A stretch of DNA of 64,000 nucleotides from Aureimonas sp. AU20 (GTDB taxonomy: Bacteria > Pseudomonadota > Alphaproteobacteria > Rhizobiales > Rhizobiaceae). The stretch lies in the NCBI RefSeq assembly GCF_001442755.1, contig NZ_CP006367.1, positions 3,348,001 through 3,412,000 of the forward strand, read 5' to 3'. Position 1 is the stretch's first letter. Each line of letters opens with the position of its first letter. Of the stretch, positions 1 through 58,195 are shown one piece after another. The notes under the pieces were generated by a model. It worked only from the letters and a program-made list of their open reading frames with translations, made no database searches and was not told where the DNA came from. Position numbers and translations under genes: made by a program.

Positions 1-1336
1 CAAAGAGGGCGTTCTTTCGCGTCAGGGCGAGCGGACGGATCGAGCGCTCGACAACGTTGTTGTCCAGCTCGACGCGCCCGTCGTCGAGGAAGCGGGACAG
101 GCCTTCCCAGCGTGAGAGCGCGTAGCGGATGGCCTCAGCGAGCTTGGTCTTCTGGCTGATCAGCGTGAGCTTCTCGCGCAGCAGGGCTTCGAGTGCGTCG
201 AGAAGCGGCCGGGTGAGGTCCTGGCGCACGAGGCGACGCACCTCGGCGGATCGTCCGCGGATCTCGGTCTCGATCCGGTAGAGCGCAGCGATGCGCTCCA
301 GCGCCTCCGATGCGATCGGTGCGGGACCGGCAGCGGCGAGTTCGTAGAACTTGCGTCGCACGTGCGCCCAGCAGAAGGCGAGCTTCACCTCGCCCTTGTC
401 GGCCAACGCCCGATAGCCGGCATAACCGTCGACCTGCAGCGTGCCGGTGAAGCCCTGCAGATGCTCGACCGGACGCTCGGCCTTGCGGTCGGGGGCATAG
501 ACGAAGACAACGGCAGGCGGATCGGCTCCCTGCCAGGGGCGATCGTCGCGGGCATAGGCGAAGAGTTGGCCGGTTTTGGTCCGGCCGAGGCCGGGATCGA
601 GCACCGGCGCCGTGGTCTCGTCGGCGAAGAGCTTGGAAGAGGCCTTCAGATGACCGAGCAGCCGTTCGTGGACGGGCCGCAGCAGGAAGGCGGCACGCCC
701 GACCCAGTCGGCCAACGTCGAACGATCGAGATGGACACCCTGCCGGGCGTAGATCTGAGCCTGGCGGTAGAGCGGCAGGTGGTCGGCGAACTTGGAGACG
801 AGCACCTGCGCAACGGTCGCTTCGGTGGGCATACCGCCCTCGATCAGCCGTGCCGGCGCGGGAGCCTGGACCACGACGCCCTCGCAGGCCCGGCAGCCGT
901 AGCGCGGGCGCCGCGTCACCAGCACCCGGAACTGGGCTGGGACGATGTCGAGACGCTCGGCGACATCTTCGCCGATCACGTGCAGCGCATGCCGGCAGCA
1001 GGGACAGACCTTGTCCTCGATGTCGACGACGGTCTCGATCCGCGGCAGATGAGCGGGCAGCGAACCCCGGTTCGCCCGGCGGCGGACGGCCCGTTCGGCC
1101 TTCGCCTTCGGAGCGGAAGCTTCTTCGGCCGCTTCGTCGTCGGCCACGCCCTGCTCGACGTCTTCCAGCCCGAGCAGGAGCTGGTCCTCGGGCAGCGTCT
1201 CGGCGCGGCGGCCGAAGCGGTGACGCTGCAACTCCTTGATGATCTGCTCGAGCCGCTCGGCGCGCAGCCGCTCGGCGATCAGCATCGCCTTGAGCGTGCT
1301 GGGATCGTCGGGAAGCGTGTCGGCCGCTAGGGTCAT
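1..1336 (-). CDS. tnpC: IS66 transposase TnpC, cut by the left window edge
   Basis: This is the DDE transposase of IS66. Translation from the ATG at 1336 reads open to base 1 (about 445 codons). It begins with a coiled-coil leucine-rich segment (residues about 15-40), then a zinc-binding region with CPCC and a CRAC pair, then the catalytic core with the DETT segment and the late CWAH/RRKF block. Near the window edge it has LDNNVVERSIRP, the conserved C-terminal DDE glutamate region, so only a short C-terminal tail is missing. It lies downstream of tnpB with a 55-base gap. No frameshift is visible in the part seen. Confidence 0.93.
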   Translation of the reverse strand, partial: MTLAADTLPDDPSTLKAMLIAERLRAERLEQIIKELQRHRFGRRAETLPEDQLLLGLEDVEQGVADDEAAEEASAPKAKAERAVRRRANRGSLPAHLPRIETVVDIEDKVCPCCRHALHVIGEDVAERLDIVPAQFRVLVTRRPRYGCRACEGVVVQAPAPARLIEGGMPTEATVAQVLVSKFADHLPLYRQAQIYARQGVHLDRSTLADWVGRAAFLLRPVHERLLGHLKASSKLFADETTAPVLDPGLGRTKTGQLFAYARDDRPWQGADPPAVVFVYAPDRKAERPVEHLQGFTGTLQVDGYAGYRALADKGEVKLAFCWAHVRRKFYELAAAGPAPIASEALERIAALYRIETEIRGRSAEVRRLVRQDLTRPLLDALEALLREKLTLISQKTKLAEAIRYALSRWEGLSRFLDDGRVELDNNVVERSIRPLALTRKNALF

Positions 1337-1391
1337 AGAGCCAGTGAATCACCTCCCAATCCCAGCGGCAACAGGCTTTGCCGCTCCTACG

Positions 1392-1748
1392 TCAGCCTGG
1401 CAGAGCCGGCACACGGGTCTCCCGCACGGCATGGACGCGGCGCCAGTCGAGGCCTTCCAGGAGCGCCGAGAGCTGGGCCGCTGTCAGATGCAGCACGGCG
1501 TCCTGCGCCTTCGGCCAGCGGAACTCGCCGTCCTCCAGGCGTTTGGCGACGAGGACGACGCCCGTGCCGTCCCAGAACACCAGCTTGATCCGATCGGCCC
1601 GCTTGGCGCGGAACACGTAGACCGCGCCCGAGAAGGGATCGGCGCCCATCGTGTCGCGCACCAGGGCCGCCAGCCCTTCGGCGCCCTTGCGGAAGTCCAC
1701 CGGCTTGGTCGCCACCATCACCCGGACCGAGCCCGAGGGGCCGATCAC
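1392..1748 (-). CDS. tnpB: IS66 accessory protein TnpB
   Basis: 118 aa, the usual size of IS66 Orf2/TnpB. The protein has the family hallmarks MVATKPVDFRKG near the N terminus, a central block FRAKRADRIKLVFWDGTG, and KRLEDGEFRWP. Its ATG overlaps the stop of tnpA (ATGA), indicating translational coupling. TnpB is required for transposition in several IS66 elements but its biochemical role is not established. The ORF looks intact. Confidence 0.93.
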   Translation of the reverse strand: MIGPSGSVRVMVATKPVDFRKGAEGLAALVRDTMGADPFSGAVYVFRAKRADRIKLVFWDGTGVVLVAKRLEDGEFRWPKAQDAVLHLTAAQLSALLEGLDWRRVHAVRETRVPALPG

Positions 1749-2206
1749 GATGAGCCCTTCAACGCCTGTATCACCGCCGTGATCGTGCGCGGGTCGGTGC
1801 CATTGGGGATCCGCACCGAGACGCCGTCGATCTCCAGTTCGATCGTTGGGCCTGCCTTGCCGGCGGAGCGCGGACGTCGCTTGCGCGCCGGACCCTTAGT
1901 CTCCACGCTCGCCGCCGCGACCACCACCGGCACGAAGCGTTGCTCGATGACCGGTGAGGGCAAAAGCGGCGAAGCTCGATCGGCGTCATTCATCGGTCCG
2001 CGAAGCTGGCGGCGCCAGGTGAAGAGCTGGGAATGGCCGAGCCCATGGCGGCGAGCCACCGCGCTCACGCTCTCCAGGCCCGAATAGCTCTCGGCAACGA
2101 TCGCAGCCTTCACCTCATCGCTCCATTCGCGCCGACGGCCCGCGCCCGTGAACACCTCGAACCGCCGAACCGGCTCCGGGCCAGCATCGGCACATGACAT
2201 CGACAT
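1745..2206 (-). CDS. tnpA: IS66 accessory protein TnpA with helix-turn-helix
   Basis: 153 aa, a typical length for IS66 Orf1. It carries an N-terminal helix-turn-helix of the IS3/IS66 Orf1 type (roughly residues 25-65, including RREWSDEVKAAIVAESY and SAVARRHGLGHSQLFTWRRQ), followed by a variable basic linker and a C-terminal block with IELEIDGVSVRIPNGTD. It is the first gene of the element, starting about 85 bases inside the terminal repeat. The upstream stretch to 2290 would hold the transposase promoter. Confidence 0.92.
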   Translation of the reverse strand: MSMSCADAGPEPVRRFEVFTGAGRRREWSDEVKAAIVAESYSGLESVSAVARRHGLGHSQLFTWRRQLRGPMNDADRASPLLPSPVIEQRFVPVVVAAASVETKGPARKRRPRSAGKAGPTIELEIDGVSVRIPNGTDPRTITAVIQALKGSS

Positions 2207-2260
2207 AGCTCCAAGCCCTCCTGCAACGCGAAGGGCTCAGACTCGACGCCTACCTCGCCC

Positions 2261-2290
2261 TCAGCAAGGTGCGGTCGGGACGACGCTTAC
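2261..2290 (-). repeat. IS66 terminal inverted repeat (tnpA-side end)
   Basis: The terminal stretch ends with ...GACGACGCTTAC on the plus strand, so the element tip is GTAAGCG on the minus strand. The first base of the element completes an alanine codon of the interrupted flagellin frame and the next three bases are TAA, its new stop. The partner repeat is off the left edge, so the repeat length is only estimated from typical IS66 ends. Confidence 0.75.
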
Positions 2291-4266
2291 GCTGCATCGA
2301 TCTTGACGTTCTTAGAAGAACCAGTTCCGACGGCGATGTCGAAGGAAATGTTGTCGTCAGCGTCGAGCGCGATGCCACCGACGGGAAGAGAAATCGTGTT
2401 GGCCGCCGAAGCTTCGACCGCGTTGGTGCCCTGCTTGATACCAGCCGCCTTGGTCAGACCAAAGGTGCTCGCGATTGCGGACGAAGGATCAACTGCCGTC
2501 AGCGAATTCACGATCAAGAGATCTTGACCAGCCACGCCTGGGCCGTTGCGCGTCAGCGTCAACGTAGTGGTGTTGCTGGAGACGGTGTAGTTACCGAAGA
2601 TCGAGTTGGTCGCAGCCTGACGCGTAAACGCGGCAGAGAGCGCCTTCTGCATATCGCTCGCAGAGGTGCCACCATCAATGGTGAAGTTCGACAAACCAGC
2701 CGTCTGAAGATCCGCGCGGGTGATTTCGACCGTCTGAGTCGTGCCACCACCCACAAGGCTGTCCGTGAACTGGAACAGGATCTTGTCGTCCGCATCTGCG
2801 AAGACTGCGGTCGCACCACCACCGATGGTCAGGGTATCCTTCGCACCATTTGCCACATAGGCTTGAGCATCAACAGCCGTCGCAGTCGAATTTGCAGCCG
2901 TCGAGTTGATGGTGGTCGCTGTGGCCGTGCTAACCATCGTCGCGGACGGCTTATCACCAGCCGTCTTGTAGGTCAGCGTCAGAACGCCAGCGCCGTCATC
3001 GCTGGCAGTTACAAGCGCGCTGAGCGTGCTATTGCCATTGATGAAGGCTTTCACCTTCTGAGCTTGCACGATGGCTGTGTCGGCATTGGCAATAGCTACT
3101 GTTGCGCCGCCAGTCTCGCCGGTGCCAAGCGTGAACGTCAGAGTGCCGGCCGCGCTAGCAGTGGTAGCAAACGTGAAGGTTTGGGTTTCAGCCGTGAAAG
3201 CCTGACCTTGCGTGCCAGCAGCAGCCGTTACTGTCAACGCTCCCAAATCAAACGTCTTATCGGCGCCAGAGAACGCAGTGACTTCAACGGTCTTGTTCAG
3301 ACCACCATCGGTGCGCTGCAGCGCAAAGCTGTTGCCGTCCTTGACAGCGGCAACGTTCGTGATGCCATTGCTCTTCAGAACGTTGTTGACGACGGTGGCG
3401 AGTTCGTCAACCGAGCCGATCGTCCCAGCCTTCGCGATGCCAGCGCCGGCAACATCGCCAACTTTGATCTTGACCGTCGTAGCGGAAGCAGCGTTGTCAG
3501 CCTTGAACGACAGGGTCAGTTCGTCATCGAGGTCGAGCGTCGTCGCCGTGAACGCACCGGTGAACGTGCTGGTCGCCTTGGTCGCGTCCGAACCCGTGAC
3601 GGTAGCCTCAGTTAGACCGCCTGCGCTCTTGTTACCGGTCATCGCGGCACCACCGAAAGACAGGTCCTTGCCCTTGGCATCCTTCAGGGACACCGAAGCA
3701 TCAATGATGCCGGACTTCGTCGTGTCAGCGTTCGCATCAAACAGGGCGGCGTTCGAAGCATCGAGCTTGATCGTGCCGATCGTGAGCGCGCCATTCGAAT
3801 CGCGAGAGGCAGACGCCACGATGGTCTTGGTGGCGCTGTAGCCAGCGGCCGAACTATCCACCGAAAGCAGGTTTTCACCGGCAAACACGGAAGTGCTGGC
3901 AATCGACTTAAGCTGTTCCTGAAGCTGCTTGATCTCAGCCTGAATCGTATCGCGGTTAACGCCGTCCTGCGAAGCAGCCGTAAGCTTGGACTTGATCTCG
4001 TCGAGAACGTCCTTGGCTTTGGTAAGACCCTGATAGGCGGTATCGACGGTCGCAGCGCCAAGGCCAAGCGCGTCCTTGACGGTCGAGAGCGACTTGTTGT
4101 CGGACTTCAGCGTGGTGGAGATCGACCAGTAAGCCGCGTTGTCCTTGGCCTCACCGATCTTCAGACCCGTCGAAATGCGGCCCTGAACGGCTTCAAGCTG
4201 CTGGTTCGTGTTCTGGAGGGTACGCAGCGCGGTGAGAGCGGCGGCGTTCGTGTTCACGGAGGTCAT
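2287..4266 (-). CDS. Flagellin, C-terminus removed by IS66 insertion
   Basis: This gene encodes the filament subunit. The start is set at the ATG at 4266, giving MTSVNTNAAALTALRTLQ, the conserved start of rhizobial flagellins; an in-frame start 35 codons upstream would lie in the leader. Residues 1-140 are the N-terminal D0/D1 helices. A very long variable region then runs to residue 659, with three DxDDxIxF-type modules near residues 244, 491 and 635 resembling flagellin IN repeats. The third module is cut: the last residues are NVKIDAA and the TAA comes from the IS66 tip. The C-terminal D1/D0 helices needed for polymerisation are absent, so the product should not form normal filament. Base composition is lower in GC than the neighbours. 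Confidence 0.9.
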   Translation of the reverse strand: MTSVNTNAAALTALRTLQNTNQQLEAVQGRISTGLKIGEAKDNAAYWSISTTLKSDNKSLSTVKDALGLGAATVDTAYQGLTKAKDVLDEIKSKLTAASQDGVNRDTIQAEIKQLQEQLKSIASTSVFAGENLLSVDSSAAGYSATKTIVASASRDSNGALTIGTIKLDASNAALFDANADTTKSGIIDASVSLKDAKGKDLSFGGAAMTGNKSAGGLTEATVTGSDATKATSTFTGAFTATTLDLDDELTLSFKADNAASATTVKIKVGDVAGAGIAKAGTIGSVDELATVVNNVLKSNGITNVAAVKDGNSFALQRTDGGLNKTVEVTAFSGADKTFDLGALTVTAAAGTQGQAFTAETQTFTFATTASAAGTLTFTLGTGETGGATVAIANADTAIVQAQKVKAFINGNSTLSALVTASDDGAGVLTLTYKTAGDKPSATMVSTATATTINSTAANSTATAVDAQAYVANGAKDTLTIGGGATAVFADADDKILFQFTDSLVGGGTTQTVEITRADLQTAGLSNFTIDGGTSASDMQKALSAAFTRQAATNSIFGNYTVSSNTTTLTLTRNGPGVAGQDLLIVNSLTAVDPSSAIASTFGLTKAAGIKQGTNAVEASAANTISLPVGGIALDADDNISFDIAVGTGSSKNVKIDAA

Positions 4267-4383
4267 GAGATTGTCCCGAAAAGAATTCGATGGGACAGAC
4301 CGGATCGGGCCGGCATAGGAGCTCGGCATCATGCCTTTGATCGCGACTCCTTGGAGCGTTTCGGCGATCAATCTCCTATGCCG
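4267..4383 (-). promoter_or_regulatory. Structured 5' leader of the flagellin mRNA
   Basis: An 11-base perfect inverted repeat (4311-4321 with 4373-4383) encloses two smaller hairpins: an 8-base one (4337-4344 with 4364-4371, with CTCC/GGAG inside it) and a 5-base one (4324-4334). A further 6-base repeat (TGTCCC at 4272-4277, GGGACA at 4292-4297) sits five bases before the start codon and would pair the only Shine-Dalgarno-like bases. The pairing is read directly from the sequence. A role in translational control, for example by FlbT as in Caulobacter, is inferred. Confidence 0.65.
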
Positions 4384-4479
4384 TCGAAATTAGGTCGTGA
4401 CCTTTAAAACAAGGTAAAACGAGGCGAGAGAAAGACGATCATTTCTTGGCGGATGCTGGCGGAAGATCAGCAGGACTTT

Positions 4480-5262
4480 CTACATGAACGAGCGCACCAG
4501 GCTTCCCGTCAGCATGTTCCAACCGTCGATCAGCACGAAGAACAGGATCTTGAAGGGCAGCGAGATGACGGTGGGGGGGAGCATCATCATGCCCATAGAC
4601 ATGGTGAGCGTCGCCACGATCAGGTCGATCACAAGGAAGGGCAGAACGATCAGGAAACCGATCTCGAAGCCCCGGCGCAGTTCCGAGATCATGAAGGCGG
4701 GGACGAGGACGCGGAAGTCCACGGTGTCGCCCTCGCCGTCGCCTTGCTGCACTTCCGGCAGGCGGCTGCGGTTGGCCGTCTGGCTGAAGTCGGAAAACAG
4801 CGCCAGATCCTGCTTGCGCACCTGATCCAGCATGAACTCGCGGAACGGCTCGGCAATGCGCGGCAGCGCTTCCTCTTCTGTGATCTGCCCCTTCATCAAG
4901 GGCTGCAACCCGTCGCGCCAGCTTTGGTCGAAGGTCGGCATCATCACGAAGAAGGTGATAAAGAGCGATAGCGAGATGATGATGAGATTGGCCGGCGTCG
5001 TCTGCAGGCCAAGGCCCGAGCGCAGGATCGACAGGGCGATGACGACGCGCGTGAAGGCGGTGACCATAACCAGAAGGCCTGGCGCGACCGAGAGAACGGT
5101 GACGATGCCGAAAAGCTGTACGATGCGCCCCGACACCGCGCCGTCGCCGGCCGGAATCAGCGAGGCCAGATCGTTCGCCGCATTCGCCACCGCATCCTGC
5201 GCCTGAGCGGGGAGCGCGGCGGCGGCCGCCAACAGAACGCCGAGAAGAAGGGCGCGCTTCAC
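4480..5262 (-). CDS. fliP: Flagellar type III export protein FliP
   Basis: FliP forms, with FliQ and FliR, the export gate in the inner membrane at the flagellar base. The 260-aa product has an N-terminal signal sequence (VKRALLLGVLLAAAAALPAQAQ), then the conserved block with VTAFTRVVIALSILRSGLG (about residues 65-85), and membrane segments LIIISLSLFITFFVMMP and, near the C terminus, FLIVLPFLVIDLIVATLTMSMGMMMLPP. The start is the GTG overlapping the fliL stop (GTGA), which gives the signal peptide at the very N terminus and implies coupling to fliL. The length is normal. fliQ and fliR are not in this window. Confidence 0.96.
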   Translation of the reverse strand: MKRALLLGVLLAAAAALPAQAQDAVANAANDLASLIPAGDGAVSGRIVQLFGIVTVLSVAPGLLVMVTAFTRVVIALSILRSGLGLQTTPANLIIISLSLFITFFVMMPTFDQSWRDGLQPLMKGQITEEEALPRIAEPFREFMLDQVRKQDLALFSDFSQTANRSRLPEVQQGDGEGDTVDFRVLVPAFMISELRRGFEIGFLIVLPFLVIDLIVATLTMSMGMMMLPPTVISLPFKILFFVLIDGWNMLTGSLVRSFM

Positions 5263-57936: not shown

Positions 57937-58070
57937 GCACGGGTCCTACAGGCGTCGCGGGGAAAAATCGAGATGGATCGACGCCCGACCTTGGCGTCAC
58001 GGTAAAAATCCCGTCCCGCTGCGGCATGGCGGCGATTGATTTGTGGCCGGTCGCGGCTTATGCGTCTTGC

Positions 58071-58123
58071 CGTGGTGATTTTGCCGGCCGGCTTGCAGCC
58101 ACGTTAAACAACTCGCTAAAGGG
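58071..58123 (+). promoter_or_regulatory. SAM-II riboswitch ahead of metZ
   Basis: The sequence CGTGGTGATTTTGCCGGCCG continues GCTTGCAGCCACGTTAAACA and then actcgctaaaggg, which matches the SAM-II (metA) consensus including the P1 pairing CGTGG/CCACG, the ACGTTAAACAA strand and the pseudoknot partner GCTAAA. It lies about 70 bases before the metZ start. It binds S-adenosylmethionine and lowers expression when SAM is high. Confidence 0.93.
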
Positions 58124-58195
58124 CCGTTTCTCGAGTTCTCCCGAGCGGTTCCGAAGGCGTAGCCCTTCATGAAGTCGGCCCTCGGAGTGATCCTC

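Follow-up and report, generated by a model that had tools for sequence, protein, structure and literature searches.

The window analysed here, a stretch of 64,000 nucleotides from the chromosome of Aureimonas sp. AU20, carries a flagellin gene on its minus strand. Its start codon, ATG, lies at 4266-4264 (start region of the gene on the minus strand: MTSVNTNAAALTALRTLQ), its leader covers 4383-4267 of the same strand, and the gene upstream is fliP. An IS66-type element interrupts this chromosomal flagellin (seen in window 1-2286 and in L320), and the N-terminal part of the protein is encoded inside the window; a domain scan of the frame at 2287..4266 detected no Flagellin_C. TnpB_IS66 at 1392-1748 and HTH_Tnp_1 at 1745-2206 mark the IS66-type region, and a flagellin C-terminal end is encoded beyond the window start (L320, G000:C1:3346000-3348100). 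On contig C6, the same genome has a second flagellin, whose frame is intact and which also carries the leader element described below, with scores of 41.4, 56.5 and 50.5 bits for our models R1, R2 and R3, respectively. The features of the locus are as follows.

2287..4266, minus strand: flagellin reading frame, with Flagellin_N only, interrupted downstream by the IS66-type element
4272..4297, minus strand: P5 hairpin, TGTCCC / GGGACA, which covers the bases ahead of the start codon; 97.7% of cells paired in the 60-leader alignment
4300..4313, minus strand: P4 hairpin, CCGG-CCCGAT-CCGG; 99.6% of cells paired in the 60-leader alignment
4311..4321, minus strand: 3' arm of P1, CTCCTATGCCG; consensus core at 4321-4314, the last three bases belonging to P4 in the consensus (fold, covariation and arm-swap test)
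4325..4335, minus strand: P3 hairpin, GGC-AUGAU-GCC, the best-conserved part of the element; GGC-AUGAN-GCC in relatives
4337..4371, minus strand: P2 hairpin, TTGATCGC / GCGATCAA, with CTCC/GGAG in its apical part; length varies among relatives
4373..4383, minus strand: 5' arm of P1, CGGCATAGGAG; consensus core CATAGGAG at 4380-4373 (fold and covariation)
4393-4388, minus strand: -10-like CTAATT
4404..4418, minus strand: likely upstream activator box TTTAC-N6-TTAA, 11 bases from start to start, CtrA/Rem-like
4480..5262, minus strand: fliP

The leader is organized as a three-way junction (P1-P3) followed by the small hairpin P4 and the hairpin P5. Most of this architecture had been proposed from the letters of the window, and its components are present: an 11-base perfect inverted repeat (4383-4373 and 4321-4311, spaced by 51 bases), an 8-base stem enclosing CTCC/GGAG (4371-4364 and 4344-4337), and a 6-base stem beside the start codon (4297-4292 and 4277-4272). 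The supposed 5-base hairpin GGCAT/ATGCC also exists, but five pairs would leave a loop of a single base, and it folds instead as four pairs around UGA at 4335-4325; apart from this shortening, all of the proposed stems appear in the minimum-energy fold. P4, in which CCGG at 4313-4310 pairs with CCGG at 4303-4300, was absent from that proposal and shares bases with the three outermost pairs of the 11-bp P1 repeat. A 161-nt segment folds at -56.9 kcal/mol (z -3.07), a value that none of 200 shuffled sequences reached. Because the opposite strand folds equally well (z -3.38), folding energy by itself is weak evidence and does not identify the strand of the element, which was chosen from gene orientation and covariation. 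Two further ideas were discarded. A T-loop likeness of P4, spotted by eye, failed because the P4 loop varies in length and sequence, and an upstream reading frame beginning at the P3 AUG was rejected, since its frame relative to the flagellin is spread 16/22/17 over the 55 scorable of 57 leaders and, of the 16 cases in frame, just 8 run on without a stop.

P5 is predicted to hide the ribosome-binding bases, as the sequence-only reading had suggested: within the window leader, the unpaired probability of GGGAC is at most 0.002. Across 57 leaders, the region from -16 to -7 has a mean unpaired probability of 0.32 and the AUG one of 0.48, which is less closed than in the window leader. Pairing of the leaders with the assumed 16S tail averages -4.8 kcal/mol, compared with values between -1.9 and -8.6 at ten other starts in the window that were assigned to flagellar genes.

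Upstream of P1, TTTAC and TTAA recur with a spacing of 11 bases in nine leaders from the own and near genera and, judged by eye, the -10-like word follows the box at constant spacing within the genus. With such a box and such a constantly spaced word, transcripts would be expected to begin near the foot of P1, at about 4380. CtrA motifs are listed for flaA, flaC, flaD, mcpE and mcpY of S. meliloti (PMC3616915).

Evolutionary evidence for the fold comes from leaders of related genomes, where the proposed structure called for compensatory changes. Double changes in P1, P2 and P4 are already visible in an alignment of seven leaders. In a 60-leader alignment (A3), from which L051, L054 and L055 (28.0, 22.7 and 19.1 bits; not beside flagellin) were left out, 92.9% of cells are paired and 26 of 29 pairs show change on both sides; double-change cells number 258, against 68.8 after shuffling and 16-38 when the pairing is slid by 1-3 columns. 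A larger alignment (A5) of 106 copies from 85 chosen sources, in which many rows, the named ones, had been chosen for carrying P3, P4 and half of P5 and the weakest row scores 23.0 bits, gives 91.8% paired cells, both-side change at 27 of 29 pairs, and 505 double-change cells compared with 154 shuffled and 36-91 slid. Compensatory change thus extends to all helices in rhizobia-type bacteria, as the claim of a branched leader with a start-region hairpin implies, although counts from A2, A3 and A5 lean towards structure because these alignments were fitted to the model. RNAalifold applied to an unfitted MAFFT alignment of 78 pattern-selected sites (A4), in which the P1 and P2 arms were not aligned, returned P3 and two pairs outside the proposed structure; it did not recover P1, P2, P4 or P5 and reported no covariation, a negative outcome that, taken at face value, counts against the proposed structure.

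An alignment-free arm-swap test, run afterwards on 38 of the 78 sites, put the P1 duplex at -12.33 on average, compared with -10.10 for swapped arms (sd 0.34; lowest of 200 rounds -10.91), and the 45 bases preceding P3 at the same sites fold at -12.39, against -9.36 for shuffled letters (sd 0.39). This test supports P1 without any alignment. The aligned relatives also bear on the idea that the inverted repeats act as DNA, either as transcription factor sites or as a fliP terminator. Their location between fliP and flagellin, close to the CtrA/Rem-like box, would suit such a role; however, the letters of P1 and P2 change without loss of pairing, and the length of P2 is variable, which is unlike a protein site on DNA, and we regard this explanation as hardly credible.

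A blastn search returned matches in 8 of 41 genomes, the own genome included, one of which (L010) lacks the motif. Seven leaders from six genomes were aligned first, and model R1, whose E-values are rough, was then built; it matches 16 of 21 genomes of the genus and, at E<=0.01, 182 of 247 genomes and 84 of 109 genera of the family. No strong match was found in five genomes of the genus (G005, G012, G013, G014 and G017). Model R2 extends the distribution to 85 of 297 genomes and 39 of 123 genera of the order, with E-values down to 3e-22 in other families; in a scan of the whole window, it gives a single match at E<=1e-4, at 4261-4388 on the minus strand (98.1 bits). A pattern scan of named genomes yielded at least 119 stretches in at least 80 loci, and the matches listed include Bradyrhizobium, Sinorhizobium, Ensifer, Agrobacterium, Rhizobium, Mesorhizobium and Ochrobactrum, as well as Hyphomicrobium, Xanthobacter, Microvirga, Pannonibacter, Roseibium and others.

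The element was detected in one order only. Among 337 genomes drawn from the class, a few of them from the same order, only the own genome and 10 weak matches in unrelated sequence were recovered; these score at most 27.4 bits, none lies beside a flagellin, and inspection led us to judge them chance. Since the filters were strict and about 10 candidates were scored per genome, large searches may miss diverged copies. Within the order, L262, L263 and the match in G490 (28.6 bits) also look like chance, and those in G549 and G482 are weak (23.4 and 22.0 bits). A scan with R3 added no copy to those already known in the own genome; elsewhere in the genus it gave nothing above 24.8 bits beyond flagellin leaders.

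The genes that follow the element are predominantly flagellins. For 63 matches in 52 loci, the next gene is a flagellin in 59 cases; of the rest, L069 breaks off after MSSINT, where the locus ends, and three weak ones do not lead into a flagellin. Similarly, 97 of 106 sites in the pattern-scan loci, among the matches listed, precede a flagellin according to the script. The remaining nine comprise four at a locus end (L154, L163, L195 and L203), three that precede flagellins missed by the script (L138, split over two frames; L184; L199), L167, which precedes a methyl-accepting chemotaxis protein gene, and L172, of uncertain type. At L172 (7333-7463, minus strand; 60.2 bits), the first long frame begins 259 bases on and contains TTTQIAAL-like repeats, resembling neither a flagellin nor a chemotaxis protein. 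Seven copies of the element lie within about 7.5 kb at G303:C1:2912127-2919673, a region we read as a tandem flagellin array after checking two of the seven.

Twenty order matches, mostly outside flagellin arrays, were also examined. Additional flagellins stand behind L251, L252, L254, L259, L260 and L261, and ten non-flagellin proteins (from nine of these 20 loci and from L167) were scanned for domains: methyl-accepting chemotaxis proteins account for eight, of which three have a protoglobin domain, and the other two are a CheA-like protein and a PAS-GGDEF-EAL protein. The R2 scores of the non-flagellin copies are 56.9 (L167), 53.6 (L244), 47.9 (L253), 38.4 (L246), 35.8 (L255), 32.9 (L250) and 32.6 bits (L248); L256, L257 and L258, at 27.7, 26.4 and 24.6 bits, are singly no better than the class matches. 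Non-flagellin genes begin from 4 to about 390 bases past the element match. Before several chemoreceptor genes, P1-P4 are kept and P5 is altered or missing; P1-P4 therefore look like a portable module, and masking of the start site is not universal. The R3 scan recognised no chemoreceptor copy in the own genome. Separately, L285 (G514:C6:67989-68109; 40.2 bits) is followed by a frame that looks like a sensor protein, in a genome with no listed flagellin or FlbT.

We have very little doubt that the element is a genuine cis-regulatory RNA; it would sit at the 5' end of the flagellin message or close to it. A simpler function would be that of an mRNA stability or processing element, in which 5' structures shield the abundant flagellin message from RNases without regulated switching. 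An apparent position at the extreme 5' end, as judged from the putative promoter, would fit this, as would the many tandem flagellin genes that each carry the element (e.g., in G303, G148 and G114); yet it leaves the near-invariant P3 sequence and the pairing of the start region unexplained, and we consider it improbable.

The element is an RNA family absent from Rfam 15. No Rfam 15 match falls on the leader, and the window's four Rfam matches all lie elsewhere; the leader alone gives none at E<=10, RF01736 included, and ten related loci give six matches, all below gathering and none over a leader. At 58062-58139 on the plus strand, the Rfam scan places a SAM_alpha (SAM-II) riboswitch (74 bits). 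The sequence-only reading had stated that no consensus RNA for FlbT control of flagellin leaders is widely catalogued. The order does have a catalogued flagellar leader RNA, flg-Rhizobiales RNA (RF01736), described by Weinberg et al. 2010 (PMC2864571), but it has another structure and is located before an flgF-type gene. RF01736 is present in 18 of 150 order genomes, above the cut-off in 3, and in all 18 loci examined its matches run into this gene, which we take to be flgF-type from its N-terminus and the flgG-like frame behind it. Although both are leader RNAs of flagellar genes in one order, an identity between them was rejected: RF01736 does not score at the leader, our element precedes flagellin rather than an flgF-type gene, and the hairpins differ, those of RF01736 bearing UUGGGGAG-like loops. 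The search that recovered the family in those 18 genomes found no match in the own genome. In the open-access literature, searched for the RNA itself and for FlbT with flagellin leaders, we found no description of the element.

Translational control of flagellin at its leader is known from CsrA/FliW systems, which share that level of control with the present element but differ in the recognition sequence, the invariant loop here being AUGA and not GGA. A closer parallel is the flagellin mRNA of Caulobacter, whose 5' leader is under FlbT control (Anderson and Gober 2000, cited by PMC3930126, PMC4347634 and PMC9812332) and where a structured leader ties flagellin translation to flagellum assembly. 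The own genome encodes FlbT as well (PF07378, 140.6 bits, G000:C1:3334096-3334467), about 18 kb from the flagellin start. In the order sample of 297 genomes, FlbT occurs in 210 and Flagellin_N in 223; lists compared by eye place FlbT in 81 of the 85 element-bearing genomes, the exceptions being G137 (86% complete), the weak matches G490 and G549, and G514. FlbT is thus close to necessary, but not sufficient, for the presence of the element.

Thirty-five FlbT rows were picked by hand: 19 share a contig with an element and lie within about 35 kb of it, whereas the other 16 have none nearby. In a clean tree without G468, G068 and G151, whose sequences fit their groups by eye, a single branch with 100/100 support parts 18 element-near from 14 other rows; the label changes once there, and twice in the 35-row tree, which is disturbed by a mis-extracted row (L270). 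The FlbT near the element therefore differs in type from the FlbT of those order systems that lack it. Four genomes (G059, G167, G510 and G493) hold both types, with the element about 12 kb from one and not near the other. This split agrees with reports that the Rhizobiales have lateral and subpolar flagella, of which the Rhizobiaceae possess only the lateral (PMC6406911). In G059, about 21 kb separate the other-type FlbT (6529224-6529589) from an RF01736 match (G059:C1:6507829-6507971), and the two flagellar systems of this genome therefore seem to use different leader RNAs. Because whole flagellar systems are inherited together, these data tie the element to the lateral-type system, with its FlbT as the leading candidate, and the co-distribution may merely reflect block inheritance.

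The earlier proposal that FlbT reads this leader as in Caulobacter survives in part: co-distribution with one FlbT type speaks for it circumstantially, but the sign appears to be reversed. Caulobacter FlbT is reported to be a repressor (PMC9812332), acting jointly with the flagellin-like co-repressor FljJ (PMC7591256), whereas FlbT of the Bradyrhizobium lateral system is reported to induce LafA1 and LafA2 translationally (PMC8429497) and FlbT of Brucella to activate (PMC9812332). A review also presents FlbT as a proposed activator in Brucella and a repressor in Caulobacter, and calls its mode of action on mRNA unclear (PMC4347634). Activation is thus the effect reported for systems that carry the element. 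A second possible difference from Caulobacter is the lack of a credible element match in the strictly filtered search of the 337 class genomes, a sample that may include no Caulobacter.

The same cis-regulatory RNA could have another reader, such as a different protein of the lateral system (FlaF or the flagellin itself), an sRNA acting with Hfq or, as in a riboswitch, a small molecule. Nothing about the invariant P3 hairpin or the junction is specific to one kind of ligand, and FlbT occurs in many order genomes without the element; against this stand the tight match of the element to one FlbT type and the published translational effect of FlbT in these systems (PMC8429497 and PMC9812332). For Hfq in particular, S. 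meliloti flagellins are reported to fall just to about 0.6 in an hfq mutant, called a modest contribution (PMC3484140). We consider a different reader unlikely, although worth keeping in mind.

The mechanism we favour, FlbT activation through the leader RNA, seems to us somewhat probable in its full form. P1-P4 would constitute a recognition module built around the nearly invariant GGCAUGANGCCG hairpin, and P5 would cover the ribosome-binding bases, so that little translation is expected from the leader on its own. A motility protein, for which the lateral-type FlbT encoded at a distance of about 18 kb is the most likely candidate, may bind P1-P4 and make the start site usable once the flagellum is ready for its filament; opening of P5 by FlbT would be the simplest way of achieving this. 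The same module before some chemoreceptor genes would place late motility genes under one post-transcriptional control. More tentatively, and with real reservations, we envisage an order-wide regulon in which this three-way-junction RNA on flagellin, chemoreceptor and other motility mRNAs of the lateral-type flagellar system is read by a FlbT lineage that activates translation, while the other lineage, whose systems lack the RNA, works differently.

If the regulon exists, FlbT would comprise two RNA-binding regulators that differ in their targets and act with opposite sign. With this element, a well-delimited RNA of wide conservation becomes available, in which the P3 hairpin together with P4 is an obvious candidate for the binding site, along with a list of the genes that carry it. 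Since some genomes possess two flagellar systems, only one of them with the element, both the recognition and the sign of FlbT control are directly testable. For these bacteria, the element probably helps decide when flagellin is produced.
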